A stretch of 24,815 nucleotides of DNA from a virus, in IMG/VR virus record IMGVR_UViG_3300017739_000101, positions 1 through 24,815 of that record, one strand, 5' to 3'. Numbering within the stretch: the stretch's first letter is position 1; each line of letters opens with the position of its first letter. Both the position numbers and the translations under genes were made by a program. The notes under the pieces were generated by a model. The model was not told the DNA's origin. It worked only from the letters and a program-made list of their open reading frames with translations, and did no database searches. Shown one piece after another: positions 1,516 through 20,576 of this stretch.

Positions 1516-3942
1516 ATGGCAGAGTCTGTTATAAAGAGTTATTTTCCAAGTCAAGTAGTTAGCGATGCTGAAAAGCTTAGTTATGATTATGGTTTAAAAG
1601 TTGCTAAAGCAATAGAAACAGAGTGGTTTTACGACGATAGATCACAAACTAGATACGATACTAATTTCAATAATTTTCATAAATTAAGACTTTACGCAAG
1701 AGGTGAACAGCCTGTGCAGAAGTATAAAGATGAATTATCTATAAATGGTGATTTAAGTTATTTAAATTTAGATTGGACTCCAGTTCCAATTATACCTAAA
1801 TTTGTTGATATTGTTGTAAACGGCATTGCTGACAGAGCTTTTGAAGTTAAGGCGCACTCTCAAGATGAGTATGGTATTGCTAAAAGAACAGAGTATATGG
1901 AAAGTATACTAGGTGATATGGCCGCTAGAGAAATGAACGATTTTGCAGCTCAAGAGTTTGGCATAAACTTATACGAAAACGATCCTGAAACTTTACCTGA
2001 AAATCAAGAAGAATTAGAACTTCATATGCAGCTAAGTTATAAACAAGCTGTAGAAATAGCTGAAGAGCAAGCTATTAATGTTTTATTAAAAGGTAATGAT
2101 TACGATTTAATAAAAAGAAGACTCTATTATGACTTAACAGTTTTAGGTATTTCAGCAGTAAAAACAAGTTTTACAACTTCAGACGGTGTAACTATTGATT
2201 ATGTAGATCCAGCAGACTTAATTTATTCGTATACTGAGTCACCATATTTTGATGATTTATATTATGTTGGTGAAGTAAAAATGATACCAATAAACGAACT
2301 TGCTAAACAGTTTCCTCATTTAACACAAGAAGATTTAGAAGAAATACAAAACTCAGGCTATACACAAAGAAATAACTATCACTACGGTGGGCCTAGGTAT
2401 GAAGACGCAGATAGAAATAAAGTTCAAGTTTTATATTTTAATTATAAAACGTATATGAACGAAGTTTATAAAGTTAAAGAGACAGGTAGTGGGGCTATGA
2501 AGTTAATTGAAAAAGACGATAGCTTTGACCCACCTGCAGATGCTCAAGGTAATTTTTCAAAACTTGAAAGAGCTATTGAAACTCTTTATGAAGGCGCTTT
2601 AATATTAGGTACTAATAAGCTGCTTAAGTGGGAGATGTCTGAAAATATGATGCGATCAAAAAGTAATTTTACTAAAGTCAAAATGAACTATAGTATTGTT
2701 GCTCCTCGTATGTATAAAGGTAAAATTGAATCATTAGTTAGACGTATAACTGGTTTTGCTGATATGATACAGTTAACTCATTTAAAACTTCAACAAGTAA
2801 TGTCGCGTATGGTACCAGATGGCGTTTATTTAGATGCTGATGGCTTAGCTGAAGTAGATTTAGGCAACGGAACAAGCTACAATCCACAAGAAGCTTTAAA
2901 CATGTTTTTTCAAACAGGTAGTGTTATTGGTAGATCATTTACACAAGAAGGTGATATGAATCCAGGTAAAGTTCCTATACAAGAAATAACTAGTGGTAGT
3001 GGCGGCAATAAAATACAAGCCTTAATAGGAAATTATAACTATTACATGCAAATGATTAGAGATGCTACTGGTTTAAATGAAGCTAGAGACGGTAGCTTGC
3101 CAGATGAAAGAGCATTGCTTGGTGTTCAAAAATTAGCAGCCGCTAACAGTAATACAGCTACTAGACACATATTAAACTCTGGTTTATTTTTAACAGCTGA
3201 AGTTGCAGAGCAATTATCACTTAGAATATCAGATATTATAGAATATTCTCCAACTAAAGAAGCATTTATTCAAAGTATAGGTGTTCATAACGTAGCTACT
3301 CTTGAAGAAATGTCAGAGCTTCATTTGTATGACTTTGGTATATTTTTAGAGTTAGCTCCTGATGAAGAAGAAAAAGCTATACTTGAAAACAACATACAAC
3401 AAGCGTTAGCTCAAAAAACTATAGATCTTGAAGATGCTATTGATCTTAGAGAGTTGTCTAGTATTAAAGTTGCTAATCAACTATTAAAAATTAGAAGAAA
3501 CAAAAAGCAGCAGAAAGATCAACAAATGCAGCAACAAAACATACAAGCTCAAGCACAAGCTAACGTACAGCAACAACAAGCATCTGCTCAATTAGAAATA
3601 CAAAAACAACAAGCACTTAAACAAGCTGAAGCCCAAATAATGCAATTGCAAGCACAACTTGACGCTGGTAAAATACAAGCAGAGTCTCAAGTGAAAGCGC
3701 AGCTTGCAGCCCAAAAGTTTCAGTTTGATATACAGCTTAAAGCTTTAGAAACTCAAGGTATAAAAGATAGAGAAAAAACAAAAGAAGATCGTAAAGACGA
3801 TAGAACTAAAATTCAAGCTACTCAACAATCAGAGCTTATAGATCAAAGAAAATCAGGCAAGCCACCTAAAAACTTTGAGAAAACGAGTAATGATATACTT
3901 GAAGGTGGATTTGATTTAGGACCTATTGATCTTAATCAATAA
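1516..3942 (+). CDS. Portal protein
   Basis: The product (808 residues) is probably the dodecameric portal at one capsid vertex, the channel for DNA packaging and exit. Support comes from its place between terminase and scaffold/capsid, its size, and an N-terminal region rich in DWTPVPIIPKFVDIVVNG-like sequence that I associate with large podoviral portals. Residues about 663-775 are extremely rich in Gln, Ala and Lys with almost no helix breakers and should form a long helix or coiled coil, comparable to the C-terminal barrel of P22-type portals; a short acidic, Gly-containing tail (GGFDLGPIDLNQ) follows. The start at 1516 is preceded by an A-rich leader without a Shine-Dalgarno sequence. 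Family assignment rests on context plus recognition; no structure comparison was possible. Confidence 0.85.
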   Translation: MAESVIKSYFPSQVVSDAEKLSYDYGLKVAKAIETEWFYDDRSQTRYDTNFNNFHKLRLYARGEQPVQKYKDELSINGDLSYLNLDWTPVPIIPKFVDIVVNGIADRAFEVKAHSQDEYGIAKRTEYMESILGDMAAREMNDFAAQEFGINLYENDPETLPENQEELELHMQLSYKQAVEIAEEQAINVLLKGNDYDLIKRRLYYDLTVLGISAVKTSFTTSDGVTIDYVDPADLIYSYTESPYFDDLYYVGEVKMIPINELAKQFPHLTQEDLEEIQNSGYTQRNNYHYGGPRYEDADRNKVQVLYFNYKTYMNEVYKVKETGSGAMKLIEKDDSFDPPADAQGNFSKLERAIETLYEGALILGTNKLLKWEMSENMMRSKSNFTKVKMNYSIVAPRMYKGKIESLVRRITGFADMIQLTHLKLQQVMSRMVPDGVYLDADGLAEVDLGNGTSYNPQEALNMFFQTGSVIGRSFTQEGDMNPGKVPIQEITSGSGGNKIQALIGNYNYYMQMIRDATGLNEARDGSLPDERALLGVQKLAAANSNTATRHILNSGLFLTAEVAEQLSLRISDIIEYSPTKEAFIQSIGVHNVATLEEMSELHLYDFGIFLELAPDEEEKAILENNIQQALAQKTIDLEDAIDLRELSSIKVANQLLKIRRNKKQQKDQQMQQQNIQAQAQANVQQQQASAQLEIQKQQALKQAEAQIMQLQAQLDAGKIQAESQVKAQLAAQKFQFDIQLKALETQGIKDREKTKEDRKDDRTKIQATQQSELIDQRKSGKPPKNFEKTSNDILEGGFDLGPIDLNQ

Positions 3943-7645: not shown

Positions 7646-8383
7646 ATGGCAATAAAAATAAATACAGTATATCAAACAGTATTAGCGTTAGCTAACAAAG
7701 AGCAAAAAGGGTATATTACGCCTCAAGAATTTAATTTATTCGCCAAACATGCTCAGATGTCTATATTTGAGCAGTACTTTTATGATTTAAATCAATTCAA
7801 AAGGATTCAAACTAACGACACAGAAGCCTTTGACATGATTAACTTAATAGAAGAAAAATTAAACTCAATTTTTTTAAGACAACTTTCAACTACTAGCGCT
7901 TTTAAAAGTTATGGTGCAGATCTTCCTAGTGATTTTTACAGACTACATGATTGTTTTTATAGACAAACAAGCTCGCCATTAGGAGCAGTAGGCAATAAAG
8001 TTGAGCACATGGAAAGACAACAAGCTGTAGAAATAGGTTCAAGTGGTCCTTTAACTAGACCTACCATAAATACACCGATAAGTTACATTTTTAGTGGTAG
8101 AATTTACATGCGGCCTATTGTTGTTCCTTCGCCGCCAAACACTGCTTTTTTCATGTCATATTATAGAAAGCCCAAAGATCCTAAATGGACTTACGTTGTT
8201 TTAAATGAAAAGCCTATGTTTAACGCAAGTGGCGGTGTTCAAGACTTTGAACTTCACCAGTCTGAAGAAACAAATTTAGTTTTAAAAATACTACAGTTAG
8301 CAGGAATTAGTGTTAAAGACTTTGGTACAGCTCAAGCAGCAGCTCAAATAGAAAATAATAAAATAGTTCAACAAAAACAATAA
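7646..8383 (+). CDS. Probable neck/ring (head-tail connector) protein
   Basis: This 245-residue protein probably forms a ring below the portal. The N-terminal pattern LALANKEQKGYITPQEFNLF followed by IFEQYFYDLNQF is one I recognise as widespread in flavobacterial and uncultured marine phages. Residues 1-90 are helical, as in podoviral adaptor proteins. The middle (PSDFYRLHDCFY and the segment after it) is mixed. A short beta region with YIFSGRIYMRPIVVP and an FFMSYYRKPKDPKW strand follows, and the C terminus is a helical, Gln-rich tail (AQAAAQIENNKIVQQKQ). It ends TAA-AAG-ATG, three bases from the next gene in the same frame, which suggests translational coupling with it. The ring role is inferred from context; no sequence similarity to P22 gp4 or T7 gp11 could be tested. 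Confidence 0.6.
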   Translation: MAIKINTVYQTVLALANKEQKGYITPQEFNLFAKHAQMSIFEQYFYDLNQFKRIQTNDTEAFDMINLIEEKLNSIFLRQLSTTSAFKSYGADLPSDFYRLHDCFYRQTSSPLGAVGNKVEHMERQQAVEIGSSGPLTRPTINTPISYIFSGRIYMRPIVVPSPPNTAFFMSYYRKPKDPKWTYVVLNEKPMFNASGGVQDFELHQSEETNLVLKILQLAGISVKDFGTAQAAAQIENNKIVQQKQ

Positions 8384-8386
8384 AAG

Positions 8387-9976
8387 ATGGCTTATTTAGA
8401 AAACTCTTCAGACTATATTTATTACAGTGATCCTTCAGCTTACGGCAATTATCAGTTTGTTTCTTTAAAAAATATTATAGATCAATTTATGGTTGCTTAC
8501 GTTGGCGATGAAAAACTTATAAAAAGAGCTAGTAAAATTGATGTATCTTTTCACGCTCAAAGAGCTTTAGCTGAAATGTCTTTTGATACTTTTAAATCTA
8601 TAAAAGCACAGCAAATAGACGTTCCCCCTAGTCTTTCTATGATACTTCCTAGAGATTATGTAAATTATACTGCAGTTAGTTGGGTAGACGCGTCTGGAAT
8701 AAAACATAATTTATATCCTACAAAATACACATCTAATCCATTTCAAGTAAAGCAAGACTCAAATCAAGAGTATGTTTTTCCTATTTTAGCAAGTGTTTTT
8801 GATAACTCTGATTTTACTAGTGGTTTAGATAACTGGAACAAAAGTCCTCAAGCAGAGTTTACCTTAGCAAAAGGAGGAGTAATGACTAGTATTGAAGTAG
8901 ATGAAACTGTAGAAAATCCTTCAGTACTTTTTAAAACTTTTTCAAATAAAGGTCTTTCTAACGCAAATCCAGCTCATGGATATTGCACTTATATATATCA
9001 AGAAGTTAACGCTTCTGATCTAGGAGCTATAAACTTTTCTGCCAATGCAACTACAACGGCCGCTTCTACTTTGACTACAACAGCAGCTGAAGTCGCTGCT
9101 TCTAGCTCTGCGTATGATAGTGCTGGAACGTTTAATACTCCTGGAAGTACAGTAAGAGTAGGTCTTAGCACTACTCCACCGAGTGAAAAAATAACATTGC
9201 AAAATTATCCTAATATAGATCCTGAAACAGGTTTACCTTACTTTGGAGGTCCAACACCAAATTCTTTTCCAAGCTACTTTGATTTAGGTTATATAGAGTG
9301 GACTCAAGGAGAAAGTGGTGTAAAAGATTACGATGGAGTTATAGATTTAACAAATGTTAGCGGCACAGTATATTTAGTTGCTATGGCTTTAATTGACCAT
9401 ACAGATACAGACGTAACTGCTTATGGTAGTTCTCTTTTGTTTGATCAGGCTACTGTTGACGATATTATAATAGATCGATTAACTGTAAAGCCATCTTTGT
9501 CACAAGAAAAATCTAGCGGTATTTCTTCAACTTTTGAAAAATTTAAATCTATAACGCCAGCTGAAAATAATAATGATGACTATAAAAACGATGATTATCA
9601 AAGAGTACCTGATGAAAGATATGGTATAGATCCTCAGTTTGCGCAAACTAATGGCTCTTTTTATATTGACGAAAGATTAGGAAAAATTAACTTTAGTTCT
9701 AATATTTCTGGAAAAACTGTAATATTAGACTATATAAGTGACAGTCTTGGAACAGAGTCTGAAATGCAAGTTCATAAGTTTGCTGAAGAAGCTATGTATA
9801 GATATATAAATCATGCTATATTAGCTACTAGAGTAAATGTACCAGAGTATATTGTTAGAAGACTTAAAAAAGAAAAAATAGCTTCTATACGTCAAGCAAA
9901 ACTAAGGTTATCTAATATTAAGTTACAAGAAATAACTCAAATATTTAGAGGTAAATCTAAGCAAATAAAACACTAG
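8387..9976 (+). CDS. Probable ring/tail adaptor protein with inserted jelly-roll-like domain
   Basis: This 529-residue virion protein has conserved ends and a large insertion. Residues 1-130 (NIIDQFMVAYVGDEKLIKR, FHAQRALAEMSFDTFKSI, ILPRDYVNYTAVSW) and residues ~400-529 (FAQTNGSFYIDERLGKINF, VHKFAEEAMYRYINHAI, IRQAKLRLSNIKLQE, ending in SKQIKH) match a core I know from crAss-like and marine phage neck proteins. Between them, residues ~139-366 form a separate beta-rich domain opening with DNSDFTSGLDNW and closing with ATVDDIIIDRL, the signature of CBM4/9-like jelly rolls. The stop is TAG, followed by TCA and the ATG of the giant tail gene in the same frame. Ring/adaptor function is inferred from position between the connector and tail genes. 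Confidence 0.6.
   Translation: MAYLENSSDYIYYSDPSAYGNYQFVSLKNIIDQFMVAYVGDEKLIKRASKIDVSFHAQRALAEMSFDTFKSIKAQQIDVPPSLSMILPRDYVNYTAVSWVDASGIKHNLYPTKYTSNPFQVKQDSNQEYVFPILASVFDNSDFTSGLDNWNKSPQAEFTLAKGGVMTSIEVDETVENPSVLFKTFSNKGLSNANPAHGYCTYIYQEVNASDLGAINFSANATTTAASTLTTTAAEVAASSSAYDSAGTFNTPGSTVRVGLSTTPPSEKITLQNYPNIDPETGLPYFGGPTPNSFPSYFDLGYIEWTQGESGVKDYDGVIDLTNVSGTVYLVAMALIDHTDTDVTAYGSSLLFDQATVDDIIIDRLTVKPSLSQEKSSGISSTFEKFKSITPAENNNDDYKNDDYQRVPDERYGIDPQFAQTNGSFYIDERLGKINFSSNISGKTVILDYISDSLGTESEMQVHKFAEEAMYRYINHAILATRVNVPEYIVRRLKKEKIASIRQAKLRLSNIKLQEITQIFRGKSKQIKH
8801..9484 (+). other. Inserted carbohydrate-binding-like domain (within the ring protein)
   Basis: Residues ~139-366 of the ring protein. 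The Asp/Asn-rich opening with an aromatic (GLDNW), a Ser/Thr/Ala-rich middle and a terminal strand VDDIIIDRL resemble CBM4/9-type beta-sandwiches. Boundaries are approximate; ligand binding is inferred only. Confidence 0.4.
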
Positions 9977-9982
9977 TCAATG
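9974..9982 (+). other. In-frame TAG-NNN-ATG junction (ring protein / giant tail protein)
   Basis: TAG (9974-9976), TCA, then ATG at 9980, all in one frame. This spacing suits termination-reinitiation. Amber read-through here would join the 529-residue ring protein to the 3127-residue tail protein. Confidence 0.5.
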
Positions 9983-12900
9983 GCTAAAATTAAAACTACA
10001 TTTATTAAAGGTCGAATGAATAAAGACCTTGACGAGCGCTTAATGCCTAAAGGTGAATATAGAGATGCTAGAAATATAGAAGTTTCAACATCTGAGGGCT
10101 CTAATGTAGGTACAGTTCAAAATATTTTAGGAAACACTCCAGTTGACAGCCTCCTTAATGGCGGTTTTATCTGCGTAGGATCTATTGCTGACGAAGGTCA
10201 AAATAAGGCTTACTGGTTTGCCTCTTCTGAAGATAAAGATGTAATAGTTGAATATGACCCTGCTTTAGAAGTGTCTTCACTAGTATTTGTTGATATAAAC
10301 AAAAGAAACACTAAAGCGTGTTTAAAGTTTGATCGAAAAATAATAACAGGCATTAATATTATAGATAATTTTCTTTTTTTTACAGATGGCTATAACGAGC
10401 CTAAAAAAATAAATATTAAAAGAAGTAAAATTGGAACAACAGACCTTAACGCTCATACTAAACTTATAGTAAGCGAAAAACATGTATATAGTGACAATAG
10501 AGGTGATGTAAGAGAAGAAAATATAACTGTAATAAAAAAGCGGCCAACAAGACCTTTGCGCGTTAAAGTAAACAAAAGCAATACTAACAAAGAAAAGGGT
10601 ATTTTTGAAAAAATATTTCCAAGATTTTCTTATAGATATAGATATGCTGATGGCGAAGTATCTGCTTATGGCCCTTTTACTAAACCTATATTTAGTGCTA
10701 ATTTTACAGACAATCTAAATTCTTTAAACTTTTTTAACTTAAAAAACGGCTACAATACATCAATGGTTAATACTATTGAGTCTATTGATTTATTAGATAT
10801 GATAGGCATGGATGCGCCAAGAGATATTGTTTCTGTAGATATACTTTTTAAAAGAGATGATTCTAACGTAGTTTATGTTGTTGAGAATGTAGATGTAATG
10901 AAGCTCGTATCTTATGGTGAGTTTAATTTATTACTTGGTAAATACACTATAACTACAGAAAATATTTTTTCAGCTATTGAAGAAAACCAAAACCTTAGAG
11001 TTTTTGATAGTGTACCTAAAACAGCTTTAGCTCAAGAAGTTACTGGCAATAGAATAGTATATGGTAATTATACTCAAGGATTTGATGTAGGCGATGTTGA
11101 AGTTAACTCTAATTATTCTGTTAAAGATTTTACTAATGAAAGTTTTTCTCAAGGAGGTATTGAATCTATTAAAGCGCAAAGAGATTATCAAATTGGAGTT
11201 GTGTTTGGAGATTATTACGGAAGAGAAACTCAAGTGTTTACTTCAAACGAAGGGTCTGTAACTGTACCTTGGAGCGATTCAAGCAAAACGCAAGGACCTA
11301 GTTATTTAGAGCCTTTAATGTTAACTTCAAGTTTATCTACTAATTTTCCTTCTTGGGCTAGCTATTACAAGTTTTATGTTAAAGAAACTTCTGGAGAGTA
11401 CTATAATCTTTTAATGGACGCTGTATATGTTCCTAGCTTAAGTACAGATTATGAAAATGAAGAAGATCATGTTTATTTATCTTTTCCATCTTCAGAAATA
11501 AATAAAATACAAGAAGACTCTTATATAATATTAAAGAAAACCTCTTCTTCTGTAGAAAAGCCTGTTAAACAATTAAATAGATATAAAGTTATTGATATTT
11601 TTCCTGAAGCTCCAGATGCAGTAGCATTTATGTATTTATCCACAGGAGAAACATCTAATCTCAGTAATAATGATAATTTATCAAACATATCTAATGAAGA
11701 CATAGGTTTATTTACTAGTCAAACTAATAGAATAGACAATGTTACAGATATTTTAGAGATAAGCGCAACTGAGTGGATAAGCGGCGGAAACTCTCCTTTG
11801 CCAGGTATGGAAGTTTCTGATGAAAATTTTACTTCAGAGCTAGATGCTTCTGACTACTATGTTTCTTGGAAAAGAGTAAGCGCTACTGGTAAAGAAACAC
11901 ATTCAAGAAGATACAGAGTTGTAAATGTATCTCAAGGATCTACAACAAAAATAAAGCTCCAAGAAAAAATATCTATTGAAGACGCTAAGCTAGCTTATGA
12001 CAATTTAGGTACTGATGTTGACGAAACAGATGACACTACAACAAATCCTATACCAGACTACGCAAACGGCGCTACTTCAAGTGCTGATAAATTACATCCA
12101 GATTTAGTTTTTTCTATTAAAAGAAAAGTAAAAAAAGATGGTGAAGATTTTTCTGGCAAGTTTTTTGTTAAAGTCTTAGCTGATGAAATTTTAAAAGAAA
12201 ACTTAATTAACTTTAGTTCAAAAAGCACTTCAGAGTTTATATCTTCTTCAAACGATACTTTTTGGTGGGGCGATGTAGCTAATGCTGACGGTAATGAAGA
12301 CTTAGGAATAAATACTATTTACGGTAATACTCCAAATACTCAGCCTGGATCAGCTGACGATCCAACAAATACTGTTACTGAGTGGGATTTACTTTTAGCA
12401 AATCATGGTAAAGCTATGTTTATAGATAACATGAGCATGGTAAGTTCTAATTTGTCTAGCTCAAACTACGCTAAACATAGTGGACAAGGCGTTAAAGCTA
12501 ATGAAGTTATATATTCTAAAAACGAATGGGACTATGAAAATGAAACTTATTGGAGTTCATCTAATGAGTATTCTATTGAAACGATGTCTGCTGTTATAGA
12601 TTCTAGTATTGAGCAAGAAGACTGGATTAATAACATAGTAAATTCTATGCATGGCATATTACAGATAAATTCTTCTTATACTGAAGGCGCTAATGCTTGG
12701 AAAAAAGATATATATAGCCAAGAGTTAGACTCTGTTTACGGTGAAGATGAAGATGCTTTTTTTATGCATTTTTCATTTTTTGCGCCAGGTAAAGATCTTC
12801 ACGATGGATCAGGCTTTGGTGATTCAGACGCTCCGTTAGACGAAGTAGAAATAGATGGAGAAAATAGTATAGCTAGCTTACTCAAAGGTATTTGGGGCGG

Positions 12901-15900
12901 TGGTGCTTTTCAATACGATGAAGATAAATTTGTTGAATTTGAAGGCAACTATTTAGACGATGATGCATTAGCAGAAGCACCAGGTCCTAACATAGGATCT
13001 GGTTATAACGTAGATTTTAAAGAGCTTCACGAAAGACAATGGGAGCCAACGTTTTCTCCTAATAGTAACTCGTTTAACTCTGACACAGAAATAGACGAAG
13101 ATTTAAAAAACTTTATACAAAATATAAAAATTGGTAAAAAGTTTAAGTTTGAAAATGACAACAATAATGAAATATACACAATACTTGATGTATCTGTAAA
13201 ACACATATATAATCATACGCCTTGGAGATCAAGATATATAAATCACTCTGCCAATGGTATATCTAGAGCTGGGGACAGCGTTGAAGAAGCAGCTAGATTA
13301 TGGGCTAAAGCAAAGGAGATAGGCACAGATCAAGTAGTTAGCGCAGAGACTAATGACGTTAGTCCTGCTCAAAACTTAGTAAATAAAATCGAAGCTTTTG
13401 GTAAGGCTAGTAATAGACGAACTTGTTATATAGTTAAACTAGATAAAAATCCTGCTTTATCTGAAAACAACCTTATAGATGGTACTGCTGACGGTATAGA
13501 TTTAGATACATCAACAAAAATACAATTTATAGATACTGAAGCTCAAGCACAGTCTGGTTTAGTAAAAAATATTTCTGCAATATTTGAAACAGAGCCTAAA
13601 GACTCGTTAGATTTAAATATATTTTACGAGGCTAGTCAAGCTATACCTACTTATTTAAACTTTTTTAATGCACCTGGTTTCGCTCCTCAAGGCTGTAGAG
13701 TTGAGTTTTTAAACTTACCACAAGCCACAAAAGGTCAACATATAGTCACTGAAAATATTATATTAGCAAATTGGGAACAAACAGAAGATGGAGATTTATT
13801 TTTTACTGTAATAAACGAAAATGCGCTAGAAGATTACTCATTTCAACCTTCAATATTTACTGGAAGTAGTGAAGAAGATGCTGAAGAAGTTGATTTTAAT
13901 CATACTATTATTAGTATAAAACAATATATAGATAGTATTGATGCAGGTATAGAAAATAATCTTGTTTTTAACAGTTTGAACAGTAGTGGTGTTAGCATAC
14001 AATATTCAGAAGCTATAGTTAGATTTTATAGAGAAGATGGTAGTTATACTTCTTGTACAATTTCTACTAATAACGATTTAATAAATTCAGGCATAGAAGA
14101 TCATAACAATAGATATGCTTTTGTTGTAAACAAAAATGTTAATCCTAATTTAAGCGTTGGGCTTAATTGGTTTAATTGTTTTAGCTTTGGTAATGGCGTT
14201 GAGTCAAACAGAATTAGAGATGATTTTAATGCTCCATTTATATCTAATGGTGCTAGAGCATCTACTACATTAGACGAGTCTTATCAAGATGAAGAACAAA
14301 GAAAATATGGTCTTATATATTCTGGAGTATATAACGCTCCAAGCGGTGTAAATAATTTAAACCAGTTCATTGCTGCAGAAAAAATAACTAAAGATTTAAA
14401 TCCTACATACGGAAGTATACAAAAACTATTTTCAAGAAGATCAGACTTAATTGCTTTTTGTGAAGATAGAGTTGTTAAAATACTAGCAAATAAAGACGCT
14501 TTATTTAACGCTGATGGTAATGTTAATTTAGTTGCTACAGAAAATGTTTTGGGTCAAGCTTCGCCTTTTGTTGGAGAATATGGAATATCACAAAATCCTG
14601 AGTCTTTTGCTAAAGAGTCTTATAGGGCTTACTTTACAGACAAAAATAGAGGCACTGTACTTAGACTCTCTATGGACGGTCTAACACCTATATCTGAAGC
14701 TGGCATGCACGATTATTTTAGAGATGAACTTCCTAAATATGGTACTTTGCTTGGAACGTATGATGATTACAAGAAACAATATAATTTGTCTTTTGGATTA
14801 GCAAGATACAATAATATTCTATTTAACTCTTATATATCTGAAGGCGAAACTTTAAATCAAAGTATATCTACTTCTCAAATTATATTAAATGGTGATTTAA
14901 ACGCTTCTGAAGAAGTTCAATTAGTTGATCCTCAGTTTTTGTATGAAAATAACGCTATAATTTCTAACGAATTTATGCAAGAACAGGTTACTATTGTTAA
15001 TTGGCCAGAAATTTTAGCTGGATCTATAGGCGCTTACTATAACGCAACAGTGACTGTACCGGCAGCTTTTCAATATGATTTAGTTTCTCAAAACTATGGA
15101 ATAGACTATTATCTTGACGGTGATGGCAATAACATAGGTCAGGCTACTACTTATGTAACAACTACTACTACTGTTGAAGTCACACCTGGAGTTTTTCCTA
15201 AGCACGGCGGTGCTAGCGATGATGATTCAAGTAGTCCGCACGGCGGATATATTCATAGAAGTATAGGTGACACAACTGGTGGTGGTTACACGCAAGATCC
15301 TTTTGCCGCTGACAACTATGGCTCTGGAAACAGTCAGTGCGCGTATTTTAATGGTGTTAAATATGGAAGATATGGAGGAGGCTCTTTTGTTCAATATATA
15401 GATCTATCAACTTATGATATTCTTGACACAGCAAACAACCCAGACAGTGACAAAGGAATACTTGTTATGAACGATACTTCTACAGAGATGAAGCGTAGTT
15501 TTGTATTTCCTTTAGGAAAATATAATGAGTCTAATCAACTAGAGACTAATGCACAAACCCAACACGCTTTTGGCTCTGAAGATCAATATTTTTCCCCTGC
15601 TCAAGATTCACTTTCTTTTGGTGGAACTATGAATCCTACTCATGTTATGAACGCAGAAGTCATAGTAGTTAAAGTTAGATATAGAGTAGTAAGAAAATGG
15701 CAATATGGTGGTGGTGATGTTGGAAAAGTTCCTATGAAAATTACTTTAATGGACGGATCTACTGATTTGTCATTTGGTGGAGTAGTAGTTTCTAATATAG
15801 AAAATACTGTGGCAGGGTCAAGCGGTGCTTTAATTGCAGGAAATACTTATATGGATCCAGACTCATATCAAAACACAATAACTAATAACGCTGCAACTAG

Positions 15901-18900
15901 TGATAATCCTTTTGTCGGTGTCAGTACTACTCTTTCTGATGGTACTAATAATGTTCATGGATCTTGGCAAATTCCACCTGCTACTTATTCTTACGAAAGC
16001 GTTGGATATACAGCTGTTGAAGAAGGAGTTTCTTCTTTAGCAGATTTAAATAACCAATTTATAGCCTTTCATAATCATTCAAGCTCAAGCTGTTCTATTG
16101 AGTTTGATACAAATCCTTACGGTTATACTCCAGCTAATAACTTGTATAACTCTACTAACAATAATAGTACGTTTTGGCCTACTATAAATGATACTTATGG
16201 TCTTCACGCTCCTTTTTATAGCCAACTTAGAACTGCTATAGTTCAATTTAGAGTTTTTGATAAAAATGATCCTTTTACTTCTAAAAGAATAATAAATAAT
16301 TTAAACGTTAACCTTTCATTTGGAGTAACAAAAGTCGATAACGCTTTTGTAGAATCTGTAGCGCTATGGAGGCAGTTTCCTTTAGAAGAAATTGGTACAC
16401 CATATAGTAGCCAAGAAGTAACAACTGATGTACCTACTCCTGCTGTTCCTGTTTATGATTTTCTTGACGTGCCAACTACAGAAACTTATTCTGGCGCAGA
16501 CGCTCTTGCTTTATATAATGCAGGTTTAGTTGCAGATCAAGCATCGCTTTTACCAGTAAATATGGGTGATCCTTGGGAAGGAACTGTTATAACAGTAAGC
16601 AACGAACAGTACACTCCGCAAGAAGTTGTTGGTAACGAGCCAGTACCAGCTGAAACAATACCTGCTTTTGCAGAAGTAATAAATATATCTACACCTGGAT
16701 TTACTTTTACTCATTTAGACGTGCCGCGCATTAACCCTTCTCCACAGTGGAACTTTTTTGCTAATTCTGATTTAGGCGATGATTTAGTTGGAGTAAGCCC
16801 TCAAGGCGAATGGGTTGAAGTTACAATAACAGATGCTAATGGTAACGATCAAACTGTTAAATATAGACAACAAACTGAAGCTGGTAGTGGTAATCTTTCG
16901 TATAATACTTACGTAGGAGATGCTATTGATAGTTTTGATGGTGAAGCGTTAGGTAGTCATTACCAAGGATCAAATACAGCGCCAACACAAGCTACTTTTG
17001 ATGGCCCTGATGGCGGTATATATTTTGGCATAAATCAACCAGAGCCTGGTGACGTGCGTATTAAAATAGAAAATGAAGATGGCTCTGATTTGTTTGTAGC
17101 TGGTAATTATTACGTTGTTGATTTGTTTTACAATGAAGAAACTCACCCTGATAGTCAAATTACAGCTCCATCATTAACAGGCGATGGCGCTAAACTTAAC
17201 GGTAGACGAGTTAGACTTGATGGCGTCGTAGACGCTGGTATTGCAGCTCAATGTCATAAAGAAACTCAAAGTTTACAAATCGAAGACAGTGCTTATCCAG
17301 CTGGTCATTTTGGTCAAATATATTATCTTGCAAATAACGACGCTGACTTAATACCGCTACCTGTAACTGTAACTGAATATGGTTCGCCACGTAAAGCACT
17401 TAGAGGTATATTTAAAGCAACTGAAAACTCAAATCAATATGTTGCTAACGGAAATAATTTTAGCCGTCTTCAAATAAGAGGTTACGGAGCTGGTGATGGT
17501 ATTGAAAACTATATACACTTTACTGGTGTACAGATTATAGATATAACACAAACAGATGCTCCAGGTGGTTTTAGTGAGTATTGGCATACAAATACTTTTC
17601 AACAACCAGAACATGCTTTTGAAGATTTATCTGCGTACTATGCTTATGGTGGTTGGAATTTTAACATACCTTCAACTCAAACAAGTCCTGATTTATTTCA
17701 AAACTATTTAGAGTATTCTTTTGAAAATAATGAGTTTAGCAGCTTATCTAGCGATGAAGTTGTTTATATACTAGAAACTAACGTACTACCAAACGGTGAT
17801 ACAGGTGTGTTTAATGGTATAGTTCAAATTAATGTTACTACACCTGTTCAAGAAGATGGGCTTGTTAAAGGAATACGCATCCAATATTCAGCTGAAGATG
17901 TTGGTAAAATGAAAGTAGCTTTTACCAATAGTGGTGAGTTTGAAATAATAGAGCCACTTGCTATAGATAGTGGTGCAACTGTAGATACTCTTGCTACTAG
18001 TGAAGGAAATAATAACTTTAATCCAGCTACTATTAACTCTCCCGGTGGAGGTGTAAAAGTAGTTATGGTAAACCCTGGTTATGAGTTTAATGCACAATGT
18101 AAAATTGAATCTATAAAGCTTTATATTGAAAGCACTGTTATTAGCGGTGGTAATATTGGCAGCTGGCTGTTTAGTAGTGTTCAACCAGTTGGTGATTTTG
18201 CGTCTGAAACGCTTAGTCCTTACAACGCTCAAGTAAATCCAGCTACTATTAACCCGCAGCCACCTGAATTTACAGGTCCTCAAATTCCTATAACATCTGA
18301 AAGCTATATTTACTTTGAAAACGAAGGAGAGTCTAACGATCAATACATAAAATTAAATAATGCTCCTGCTGGTACTCAAATTTATCAGTTTTTAGAAAAT
18401 CCACTGCAACTAGGAAATACATATGGTTTTAGTATGTTGTTTGCCGCTCTTCAATGCCCTATTGAAATATATTATTTTACACCTAACAGTGTTGATGGTA
18501 ATGCTACAGGCTTTAAGCATATATTTTCACCTGTATTTACAACAGAAGATTCTATAACACCTTTTGCCGTAGCAACATTATTACTAAATTCTATAGAAAA
18601 TTCTAGCAACCCATTGAATCTAGAAGGACAAATTTTAACTAAAAGTGTTACTATAGAAAATTACACTGGTAGTAGCGCAAATATTTTTAATTCAGAGGTT
18701 GATCTTACTGGCTGTCTTGTTATTAGAGTTTTACAGCCTTACGATAATTCTATTCCAGGATCTTTAAATAACGGACTTTTAACAGCTACTATAGATAATA
18801 TAACATTTTATCAAATAGACACTACAAACTTAATGCCTGAAACTGTTTCTTATGAAGAATCTGTAAAAGGTTGGATTAGTTTTAAAGATTTTAAAGACAA

Positions 18901-19363
18901 AAATGACCGCGGTATAGAATCTGGTTTAAGTTTAAGTAAAAAATACTATACTTTTTTAGGAGGTGCAATGTGGCAGCATTATACTAATGATACATACTCT
19001 TTGTTTTATGGCAGTGCAAGGTCGGCTAGAATAACAACTATAATTAACGATGCTCCTGATATAGTTAAACAGTTTAAAGCTTTAGAGTATGAAGGCTCTG
19101 ATGCTCTTTTCCAGGGAAGCGAAAATTATATACAAGCCCAGCAAGACGGTTTTAATACTAAAAATAGAGACGGATGGTATTGTAACAATATAAAAACGAA
19201 TATGGCAGAAGGAGATGTTAAATACTTTTTTAAAAAAGAAGATAAGTGGTTTAATTATATTAGAGGCATAAGCAGTATCAATAATTCTATTAAAGAAGGT
19301 CATTTAAATGTTCAAGGTTTAGGTATGGTATCTAGTTTAGTATTAATAAGCGAAGAAGAATAA
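9980..19363 (+). CDS. Giant tail protein (stabilisation/nozzle-like ends, large beta-rich insertion)
   Basis: This 3127-residue protein (very roughly 340 kDa) is probably the main tail component. The N terminus (FIKGRMNKDLDERL, GEYRDARNIEVSTSEGS, VGTVQNILGN) matches a family often annotated as tail or DNA-stabilisation proteins, similar in layout to P22 gp10. Residues ~211-233 (FPRFSYRYRYADGEVSAYG), ~1399 (NCFSFGNGVESNRIRDDFN) and ~1470-1600 (LFSRRSDLIAFCEDRVVKIL, YRAYFTDKNRG) continue the core, and residues ~2960-3127 (GWISFKDF, YYTFLGGAMWQHY, NDAPDIVKQFKALEYEGS) close it. The segment between ~1610 and ~2950 looks inserted: Gly/Asn/Thr-rich, almost all beta, with several jelly-roll-like modules. 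The start is set by the preceding TAG and the conserved N-terminal motif. A tail nozzle or muzzle carrying adhesion domains is the best reading; no enzymatic motif was identified. Confidence 0.75.
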   Translation: MAKIKTTFIKGRMNKDLDERLMPKGEYRDARNIEVSTSEGSNVGTVQNILGNTPVDSLLNGGFICVGSIADEGQNKAYWFASSEDKDVIVEYDPALEVSSLVFVDINKRNTKACLKFDRKIITGINIIDNFLFFTDGYNEPKKINIKRSKIGTTDLNAHTKLIVSEKHVYSDNRGDVREENITVIKKRPTRPLRVKVNKSNTNKEKGIFEKIFPRFSYRYRYADGEVSAYGPFTKPIFSANFTDNLNSLNFFNLKNGYNTSMVNTIESIDLLDMIGMDAPRDIVSVDILFKRDDSNVVYVVENVDVMKLVSYGEFNLLLGKYTITTENIFSAIEENQNLRVFDSVPKTALAQEVTGNRIVYGNYTQGFDVGDVEVNSNYSVKDFTNESFSQGGIESIKAQRDYQIGVVFGDYYGRETQVFTSNEGSVTVPWSDSSKTQGPSYLEPLMLTSSLSTNFPSWASYYKFYVKETSGEYYNLLMDAVYVPSLSTDYENEEDHVYLSFPSSEINKIQEDSYIILKKTSSSVEKPVKQLNRYKVIDIFPEAPDAVAFMYLSTGETSNLSNNDNLSNISNEDIGLFTSQTNRIDNVTDILEISATEWISGGNSPLPGMEVSDENFTSELDASDYYVSWKRVSATGKETHSRRYRVVNVSQGSTTKIKLQEKISIEDAKLAYDNLGTDVDETDDTTTNPIPDYANGATSSADKLHPDLVFSIKRKVKKDGEDFSGKFFVKVLADEILKENLINFSSKSTSEFISSSNDTFWWGDVANADGNEDLGINTIYGNTPNTQPGSADDPTNTVTEWDLLLANHGKAMFIDNMSMVSSNLSSSNYAKHSGQGVKANEVIYSKNEWDYENETYWSSSNEYSIETMSAVIDSSIEQEDWINNIVNSMHGILQINSSYTEGANAWKKDIYSQELDSVYGEDEDAFFMHFSFFAPGKDLHDGSGFGDSDAPLDEVEIDGENSIASLLKGIWGGGAFQYDEDKFVEFEGNYLDDDALAEAPGPNIGSGYNVDFKELHERQWEPTFSPNSNSFNSDTEIDEDLKNFIQNIKIGKKFKFENDNNNEIYTILDVSVKHIYNHTPWRSRYINHSANGISRAGDSVEEAARLWAKAKEIGTDQVVSAETNDVSPAQNLVNKIEAFGKASNRRTCYIVKLDKNPALSENNLIDGTADGIDLDTSTKIQFIDTEAQAQSGLVKNISAIFETEPKDSLDLNIFYEASQAIPTYLNFFNAPGFAPQGCRVEFLNLPQATKGQHIVTENIILANWEQTEDGDLFFTVINENALEDYSFQPSIFTGSSEEDAEEVDFNHTIISIKQYIDSIDAGIENNLVFNSLNSSGVSIQYSEAIVRFYREDGSYTSCTISTNNDLINSGIEDHNNRYAFVVNKNVNPNLSVGLNWFNCFSFGNGVESNRIRDDFNAPFISNGARASTTLDESYQDEEQRKYGLIYSGVYNAPSGVNNLNQFIAAEKITKDLNPTYGSIQKLFSRRSDLIAFCEDRVVKILANKDALFNADGNVNLVATENVLGQASPFVGEYGISQNPESFAKESYRAYFTDKNRGTVLRLSMDGLTPISEAGMHDYFRDELPKYGTLLGTYDDYKKQYNLSFGLARYNNILFNSYISEGETLNQSISTSQIILNGDLNASEEVQLVDPQFLYENNAIISNEFMQEQVTIVNWPEILAGSIGAYYNATVTVPAAFQYDLVSQNYGIDYYLDGDGNNIGQATTYVTTTTTVEVTPGVFPKHGGASDDDSSSPHGGYIHRSIGDTTGGGYTQDPFAADNYGSGNSQCAYFNGVKYGRYGGGSFVQYIDLSTYDILDTANNPDSDKGILVMNDTSTEMKRSFVFPLGKYNESNQLETNAQTQHAFGSEDQYFSPAQDSLSFGGTMNPTHVMNAEVIVVKVRYRVVRKWQYGGGDVGKVPMKITLMDGSTDLSFGGVVVSNIENTVAGSSGALIAGNTYMDPDSYQNTITNNAATSDNPFVGVSTTLSDGTNNVHGSWQIPPATYSYESVGYTAVEEGVSSLADLNNQFIAFHNHSSSSCSIEFDTNPYGYTPANNLYNSTNNNSTFWPTINDTYGLHAPFYSQLRTAIVQFRVFDKNDPFTSKRIINNLNVNLSFGVTKVDNAFVESVALWRQFPLEEIGTPYSSQEVTTDVPTPAVPVYDFLDVPTTETYSGADALALYNAGLVADQASLLPVNMGDPWEGTVITVSNEQYTPQEVVGNEPVPAETIPAFAEVINISTPGFTFTHLDVPRINPSPQWNFFANSDLGDDLVGVSPQGEWVEVTITDANGNDQTVKYRQQTEAGSGNLSYNTYVGDAIDSFDGEALGSHYQGSNTAPTQATFDGPDGGIYFGINQPEPGDVRIKIENEDGSDLFVAGNYYVVDLFYNEETHPDSQITAPSLTGDGAKLNGRRVRLDGVVDAGIAAQCHKETQSLQIEDSAYPAGHFGQIYYLANNDADLIPLPVTVTEYGSPRKALRGIFKATENSNQYVANGNNFSRLQIRGYGAGDGIENYIHFTGVQIIDITQTDAPGGFSEYWHTNTFQQPEHAFEDLSAYYAYGGWNFNIPSTQTSPDLFQNYLEYSFENNEFSSLSSDEVVYILETNVLPNGDTGVFNGIVQINVTTPVQEDGLVKGIRIQYSAEDVGKMKVAFTNSGEFEIIEPLAIDSGATVDTLATSEGNNNFNPATINSPGGGVKVVMVNPGYEFNAQCKIESIKLYIESTVISGGNIGSWLFSSVQPVGDFASETLSPYNAQVNPATINPQPPEFTGPQIPITSESYIYFENEGESNDQYIKLNNAPAGTQIYQFLENPLQLGNTYGFSMLFAALQCPIEIYYFTPNSVDGNATGFKHIFSPVFTTEDSITPFAVATLLLNSIENSSNPLNLEGQILTKSVTIENYTGSSANIFNSEVDLTGCLVIRVLQPYDNSIPGSLNNGLLTATIDNITFYQIDTTNLMPETVSYEESVKGWISFKDFKDKNDRGIESGLSLSKKYYTFLGGAMWQHYTNDTYSLFYGSARSARITTIINDAPDIVKQFKALEYEGSDALFQGSENYIQAQQDGFNTKNRDGWYCNNIKTNMAEGDVKYFFKKEDKWFNYIRGISSINNSIKEGHLNVQGLGMVSSLVLISEEE
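14820..18830 (+). other. Central beta-rich insertion of the giant tail protein
   Basis: Residues ~1615-2950. Repeated jelly-roll-like strands of the form L-x-G-N-x-Y occur near residues 1951 (LIAGNTYM), 2373 (FVAGNYYVV) and 2809 (LQLGNTYGF), and a terminal strand TIDNITFYQI near 2943 resembles the closing strand of CBM4/9-type domains. Other parts include a Thr run (TTTTTVEV) and His/Gly/Ser-rich loops. Probable surface-exposed binding modules; boundaries are approximate. Confidence 0.4.
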
Positions 19364-19367
19364 TAAA

Positions 19368-20576
19368 ATGTCAAATAAAATAAAAAATATTAGTATTAAT
19401 TCAAGCTCTATTTCTCAAGCTGGAGAGCTTAGAAACTTTTCTGTTACTGGAGATGTTGGAGCTACTTTTATACTAATAGTTGCCGATGCTTCAGGTAAGT
19501 TTTATGATTTTAGAACAAATACATTTTCATTAGGCCATACTCCTCAAAAAATTCTTAAAAAAACTTTAACTTCAAGCAAATACAATGGTATTATAAACTT
19601 TCCAAGTGTTGCTGGCCAAAACTATGACATTATATTAATTGGAGATCCTGCAACACATCCTGAAGGGTTTTTAATAAACAAAAGAATAAAACAATTAGGT
19701 AACATTACTTTAACTTTTTCTTTAGCTCCTAGATTTTCCACAAGTTCTTTTAAAACTTTACCAGGAGATATTACCTCTGTTAGTACTCCAGGAGGCGCTA
19801 CTTCTGCTACAGTTGTTAAAAACGTTGATTATACTATAGAAAACGCAGATACTGACGCTAATGGGTTTGGTCTTATTTTTACTCCTTCAGATATTTCTAA
19901 TATATCTTTAGCAGAAAGTGCATTTTATTTTCAAACAACAACGACTATCGATGGAGCTGTTAGTTCTAGTAAACAAGTTAAGTTAGACTCCTTAGAAAAT
20001 GTTGATATTGGCATGATTATATCAAGTGGCGCTAGTAGCGGAGAGCCTATTATACAAAGTGTAAATTATTCTACAAATGAAATAACTTTAGATTTAGCTC
20101 AAAACTTTAGTGATGGTGCTAGCGTTACTATAGAAGCAGCAGGTTTACCACGTGTAAATGCTCTTTTAAACTGCAATATATCTGCAAGTTTTACAGCGTC
20201 TGTTTTAACCGCTCCTACAACGACAGTAAGAGGTGCTGTTAGTAATAGTACTACAATAACTGTTAACGGAACATACGGAATACCTGGAGGTGGAGTTGCT
20301 ATTTACACAGGTACTAATGTAAATAACTCTGGTAGTATAACAAATAAGGTAGTGTCAGTTTCTGCTAGCTCTTCAGCTGGAAGCTTTGTAACTGGAGTAG
20401 CTCAATCGTTTAAAGGTAGTGAAGTTTTAACTTTTACACACGTAGAAACCCCTCTTCGTGAGCTTGCTGACACTTTAAGAATACAAGGAAGTATAACAAC
20501 AAGTAATTTTCCTGCTAACAATGCAACTATAAAAATAGATTTAGATAGATTAATTCAGCCAGGAGTGGCTTCATAA
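19368..20576 (+). CDS. Beta-rich virion structural protein, function unknown
   Basis: A 402-residue protein made almost entirely of short beta strands and Ser/Thr/Gly-rich loops, with few helices, no signal peptide and no membrane segment. Residues ~1-130 include LRNFSVTGDVGATFILIVAD and YDIILIGDPATHPEGF. Residues ~190-260 contain SSKQVKLDSLENVDIGMI and NEITLDLAQNFSDGASVTIE, a pattern I recognise as a recurrent Ig-like/beta-sandwich module in uncultured marine phage virion proteins. The C-terminal third repeats strand-loop units (VRGAVSNSTTITVNGTYG). The gene starts 4 bases after the tail gene stop. It may be a tail fibre or spike component, or a decoration protein; the sequence does not decide. 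A structural role is likely from its place inside the virion block. Confidence 0.6.
   Translation: MSNKIKNISINSSSISQAGELRNFSVTGDVGATFILIVADASGKFYDFRTNTFSLGHTPQKILKKTLTSSKYNGIINFPSVAGQNYDIILIGDPATHPEGFLINKRIKQLGNITLTFSLAPRFSTSSFKTLPGDITSVSTPGGATSATVVKNVDYTIENADTDANGFGLIFTPSDISNISLAESAFYFQTTTTIDGAVSSSKQVKLDSLENVDIGMIISSGASSGEPIIQSVNYSTNEITLDLAQNFSDGASVTIEAAGLPRVNALLNCNISASFTASVLTAPTTTVRGAVSNSTTITVNGTYGIPGGGVAIYTGTNVNNSGSITNKVVSVSASSSAGSFVTGVAQSFKGSEVLTFTHVETPLRELADTLRIQGSITTSNFPANNATIKIDLDRLIQPGVAS

Follow-up and report, generated by a model that had tools for sequence, protein, structure and literature searches.

A giant homologue of the crAss-type muzzle protein with a large insert at a propeller-end turn

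An open frame of 3,127 codons, located on the plus strand at positions 9980–19363 of a 24,815-base virus record (the sequence analysed here in full and hereafter referred to as the window; a metagenomic contig and a fragment of a genome), encodes a giant protein of 346 kDa that profile comparisons identify as a homologue of the crAss-type muzzle (tail-tip nozzle) protein, from an uncultured crAss-like podovirus. Alignment with its relatives places a 1,349-residue insert at a hairpin-like turn between two propeller strands near the propeller end, and not at IG2. By the same alignments, this site lies outside the IG2 and crass-domain regions of described length variation, and is used as an insertion site or as a chain break depending on the lineage; no description of this evolutionary pattern was found in the literature searched. 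We regard it as probable that the protein combines a muzzle core closing the tail with a removable block displayed as glycan-contacting β-sandwich modules, which would add to the tail fibres.

The nozzle or muzzle identity proposed in the initial annotation is supported. The Pfam domain crAss_MUZ_C (PF25729) matches residues 3005–3095 (E = 2e-7; score 31.6 bits, cut-off 27), and all 26 of the 26 insert-bearing proteins scanned contain it at E ≤ 0.1, with a best value of 1.6e-13. In addition, three blocks of the protein (N, P and C) align in the same order to phiCrAss001 gp44 in profile–profile comparisons with hhalign, for which the reference set was eight crassvirus muzzles, two of them with stop codons under table 11 and correspondingly weaker rows. 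Read under table 11, the muzzle genes of crassviruses cr272_1 (L093:2524-7269) and cr115_1 (L094:1905-6077) contain 12 and 15 in-frame stops, respectively, probably from a recoded stop codon. The frame also matches phrog_14478 (E = 6e-121), and tblastn with its first 1,610 residues matched 87 phage records, including 68 Flavobacterium and 15 Cellulophaga phages. Annotated homologues include phi38:1 gp097 (1324 aa), elemoE (1470 aa), Panino (946 + 320 aa), phi46:3 (1612 + 241 aa) and a Manatee Spring phage (1551 + 183 + 267 aa). Sequence searches of the PDB, whether with the full-length protein, the N block or the profile of the insert, returned no significant relative. The nozzle proteins T7 gp12 and P22 gp10 are several-fold shorter than the window's muzzle.

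The muzzle gene lies in a virion block with the order terminase end, portal (phrog_6547, 1e-156), Asp/Glu-rich protein, major-capsid-like protein (phrog_13704, 3e-94), 274-aa protein, 245-aa ring protein, 529-aa tail protein and giant muzzle, followed by smaller structural-type genes. The ring-protein gene (7646–8383, plus strand), two genes upstream of the muzzle, encodes a distant relative of phiCrAss001 R3/R4 (gp35/gp34; hhalign E = 4.5e-5, probability 69%), and its position also speaks for the muzzle identity. It is a Crassvirales trait to have several ring-protein genes (R1, R2 and R3/R4), and this R3/R4-like gene was the only ring-like gene detected in the window. The phage is not filed in Crassvirales; its relatives belong to Pervagoviridae, Pachyviridae and Elemovirus. 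The tail protein directly upstream of the muzzle (8387–9976, plus strand) was considered as a ring protein and rejected, as it matches none of the ring proteins. It carries about 255 extra residues (141–396) that are missing from 106 short homologues, and its length is 439–745 aa in loci with the insert and in some relatives, against 273–327 aa in nearly all two-gene loci. Homologues of the 402-aa protein encoded downstream of the muzzle (19368–20576, plus strand) are limited to loci with the insert and to some related loci that lack it.

HMM mapping divides the muzzle into conserved blocks and variable sites, all encoded on the plus strand. The N block (residues 1–383; 11128 being the last base of 9980–11128) corresponds to gp44 residues 1–317, comprising the ring-joining domain, the first propeller blades and IG1 (hhalign E = 4e-14), and contains the invariant residues F213, F216, Y218–Y220 and Y222. 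The ring-joining and propeller domains of gp44 resemble the T7 nozzle (PMC10172136). The M block (residues 391–545; 11150–11614) forms the start of the IG2-equivalent region, with a weak match to gp44 366–392 (E = 0.006). The gap between the M and P blocks, designated site B (residues 546–1377; 11615–14110), is a variable stretch of 832 aa at the gp44 IG2/crass position and spans 194–959 aa in relatives; it is a second unconserved stretch, absent from the initial annotation. Length variation of crassvirus muzzles has been reported in the IG2/crass regions, and contact with the cell surface was suggested for the gp44 crass domain (PMC10172136). No sequence homology between site B and that domain was found apart from the weak match at the edge of the region (E = 0.006). 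The P block (residues 1378–1604; 14111–14791) comprises propeller blades, aligns to gp44 1050–1172 (E = 6e-7), carries the conserved residues N1399, G1404, N1405, E1408 and S1409 and others up to about 1604, and ends with the strand GTYDDYKKQYNLS. The C block, which contains crAss_MUZ_C (residues 2954–3096; 18839–19267), aligns to gp44 1200–1280 (E = 6e-13). The conserved motifs listed in the initial annotation thus recur where it had placed them, in the F213–Y222 set, the N1399–S1409 set with its continuation, and the C block.

The insert (site C; residues 1605–2953; 14792–18838, plus strand) lies between the strand 'YNLS' and the strand ETVSYEESVKGW. Its placement at a hairpin-like turn follows from the P block ending at residue 1604, the C block starting at 2954, and the short turns found at this point in relatives: gp44 has about ten residues, reading NNDVYFTYKDHCLCYSE, that look like a tight hairpin, and phi38:1 and the L052 protein read EYVMHEKGVFTTAYS and EYVLNTGVKTLSFN, respectively. 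The insert is richer in Gly (8.9 versus 6.5%), Thr (8.3 versus 5.7%) and Pro (5.6 versus 2.9%) and poorer in Lys plus Arg (3.7 versus 9.3%), so that the Gly and Thr enrichment initially ascribed to a central β segment holds and the Asn enrichment does not (8.8 versus 8.9%). Third-position GC is equal in the insert (17.6%) and the N–M block (17.2%), and the higher GC of the insert is therefore due to amino-acid choice; a foreign origin deduced from GC was rejected, because third-position GC is the same as in the core.

Block mapping with HMMs on all fetched loci indicated that the insert is discrete, present or absent among homologues as initially proposed. A homologous insert of 586–1440 residues occurs in 32 complete single-chain relatives (total length 2401–3527 aa), whereas 31 single-chain relatives have 5–156 residues at the site; a linker of 4–12 aa takes the place of the insert in L115, L125, L004, L052 and others. 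In another 48 loci the chain stops 4–1285 residues (median 423) after the P block, and an ORF of its own encodes the C block; these two-gene muzzles (L005:9159-14726, L009:9156-14726, L007:9784-15804, L016, L061 and others) are cut at the window's insertion turn, and a conserved gene of about 310 aa often lies between the two parts. These counts refer to loci and not to independent events, because some loci are near-identical. It is hardly conceivable that the muzzle owes its length to faulty assembly or to a mobile element left unspliced (intein or intron), given 32 complete loci with a single continuous frame in nearly all, third-position GC equal to that of the core, and Pfam scans in which no intein or endonuclease domain appeared. 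We also observed muzzles apparently split elsewhere, before the P block (L186:1327-7797, 1719 + 427 aa; L187:3330-9818, 1696 + 464 aa), and a giant muzzle as two overlapping ORFs (632 and 2311 aa; L179:9998-18692), through either a frameshift or a genuine split, on a Sphingobacteriales MAG contig, which is a host hint only.

Other long single-chain muzzles carry their added mass after the C block, where they have 280–1618 residues and insert-bearing ones 19–95; this exclusion tracks clades and is not an independent count. Extensions of 800–1600 residues occur in L134:13205-18058, L155:15473-18379, L141, L142 and L137. In BLAST comparisons, homology of the insert to these C-terminal extensions was not detectable. 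None was detectable to the C-terminal extensions or in-between genes of two-gene muzzles. The L155 protein has about 390 additional residues within the N block. When viral contigs were scanned with the later insert modules, each locus inspected was again an insert-bearing muzzle. Tentatively, and with somewhat less than even probability, the propeller-end loop may be a general docking port that different lineages leave closed, occupy with a removable adhesin reaching 1,440 residues, or cut, with the C block supplied in trans as a separate protein to complete the propeller.

On a tree built from the N and P blocks with the insert left out (built quickly, rooted at the midpoint and supported by SH-aLRT values only), the insert trait requires three changes, for which a single gain with one loss each in L115 and L125 would be the simplest reading. 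Both proteins are nested inside the insert-bearing clade and retain 11 and 12 residues at the site, respectively; L125 has about 300 residues at a different site, and L115 (1830 aa) has no other added mass in the muzzle. Among giants, the insert can be aligned along its whole length at 20–50% identity and is the lowest-conserved block in 16 of 16 pairs compared. Between the window and its closest relative, L001, identity is 50% in the insert, 94% in P, 87% in B and 65% in C. Since site B also varies, fast divergence is not peculiar to the insert. These data bear on the unlikely alternative that the insert serves structurally, as a spacer or skirt that stiffens or lengthens the tail tip or aids passage through a thick surface layer without binding a specific ligand. 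Many lineages keep a large total length although the place of the added mass differs, and the upstream tail protein is also enlarged in the same wider clade, as a spacer would lead one to expect; against it, the insert is the fastest-diverging block, its modules loosely resemble carbohydrate-binding domains, and L115 lacks both the insert and any other added muzzle mass.

We predicted the structure of residues 1586–2240 and 2215–3127 with AlphaFold2, using an input alignment of 26 rows. The first region gave no usable model (mean pLDDT 46), and the model of module I (residues ~1605–2225; 14792–16654), which is β-rich with long variable loops, had no significant match in the PDB. The second region (mean pLDDT 58) contains three β modules at pLDDT 70–87: module II (~2277–2526; 16808–17557), with many ten-residue blocks at 66–87, and the predicted β sandwiches III (~2534–2724; 17579–18151) and IV (~2769–2949; 18284–18826), the last ending in 'IDNITFYQ' according to model and alignment. 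The second half of the insert is predicted as tandem β-sandwich modules, which we read as a chain of jelly-roll-like units. With these medium-confidence models, the proteins with CBM-type domains listed by Foldseek include a porphyran-binding CBM (probability 1.00, E = 0.007, TMt 0.47). CBM4, CBM6 and CBM16 proteins are also listed (single-CBM TMt 0.40–0.47), and the viral library yielded phage tail proteins and CBM-annotated proteins. Apart from the single CBMs, the matches are multi-domain proteins, with low whole-chain TM-scores to the query (0.05–0.18), and Pfam scans of insert-bearing proteins gave no CBM family passing the cut-off. Large multi-domain toxins among the top matches were discounted, as TM-scores near 0.1 say nothing beyond chains of β domains. 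Foldseek also gave weak matches (E = 1e-4 to 0.05) to alginate lyases of family 7 and to multi-domain glycosidases. The insert could instead contain an enzyme that degrades polysaccharides, in which case the muzzle would act as a depolymerase at the tail tip; we consider this improbable, since no Pfam enzyme family above cut-off was found and the glycosidase matches may stem from their CBM-like parts. Because the evidence consists of β-sandwich modules with loose CBM-like matches only, receptor binding by the insert is likely but unproven. We infer that its modules may bind sugars, and the adhesive role held for it in the initial annotation, with which its rapid divergence agrees, is plausible.

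That annotation also had the insert acting in place of separate fibre genes, a claim that is not supported: two giant-muzzle contigs also encode tail fibres, so that in these relatives the giant muzzle is no stand-in for them. The 66-kb L122 contig, with a 2755-aa muzzle, encodes a 446-aa S74-chaperone tail fibre, a 307-aa LamG protein and a 932-aa structural protein; the 52-kb L106 contig (2906-aa muzzle), from the same 11-row clade as the window, has a downstream fibre that carries GNVGIGTTSP repeats and is about 1,080 aa long. S74 matches were absent from the other giant-muzzle records, which are fragments, so that this absence is uninformative. The L122 contig (L189–L192) also carries a GroEL-type chaperonin, a GroES-like protein, a B12-type ribonucleotide reductase and an M15 peptidase endolysin. 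In the mechanism that we favour, a core formed by residues 1–383, 1378–1604 and 2954–3096 would close the tail as a hexamer, as gp44 does, here of about 2.1 MDa, and the 1,349-residue block would be displayed outside it as a chain of β-sandwich modules contacting host surface glycans. Such tail-tip binding would supplement the work of separate fibres, not replace it, and could help to signal gate opening.

A muzzle that gains, loses or exchanges a large block at a single defined site, and that has near relatives without it, allows host sensing and opening in muzzles to be approached directly, by asking whether the tail tip itself recognizes the host. The comparison also helps annotation, as hundreds of 'virion structural proteins' from the environment are muzzles, many of them encoded by two genes; no account of long or two-gene marine muzzles was found in the literature searched.

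Among known systems, phiCrAss001 gp44 (PMC10172136) shares with the window's muzzle the order of the N, P and C blocks, the C-terminal Pfam domain and the position after ring-protein genes, but is 1371 rather than 3127 aa long, and its chain crosses the insertion site with about ten residues. The cultured Cellulophaga phages phi46:3 and phi13:2 (Pachyviridae) have the same blocks in a chain interrupted at the window's insertion place; unlike in the window, their C block is a separate 241-aa gene, and their first protein continues beyond the P block for about 500 residues, for which no relation to the insert was detectable. Cellulophaga phi38:1 gp097 (Pervagoviridae) and its counterparts in the Flavobacterium elemo phages share the terminase-to-muzzle neighbourhood and the four blocks in a single chain, but are 1324 and 1470 aa long, with 6–21 residues at the insertion site and a site B of 336 and 200 aa.
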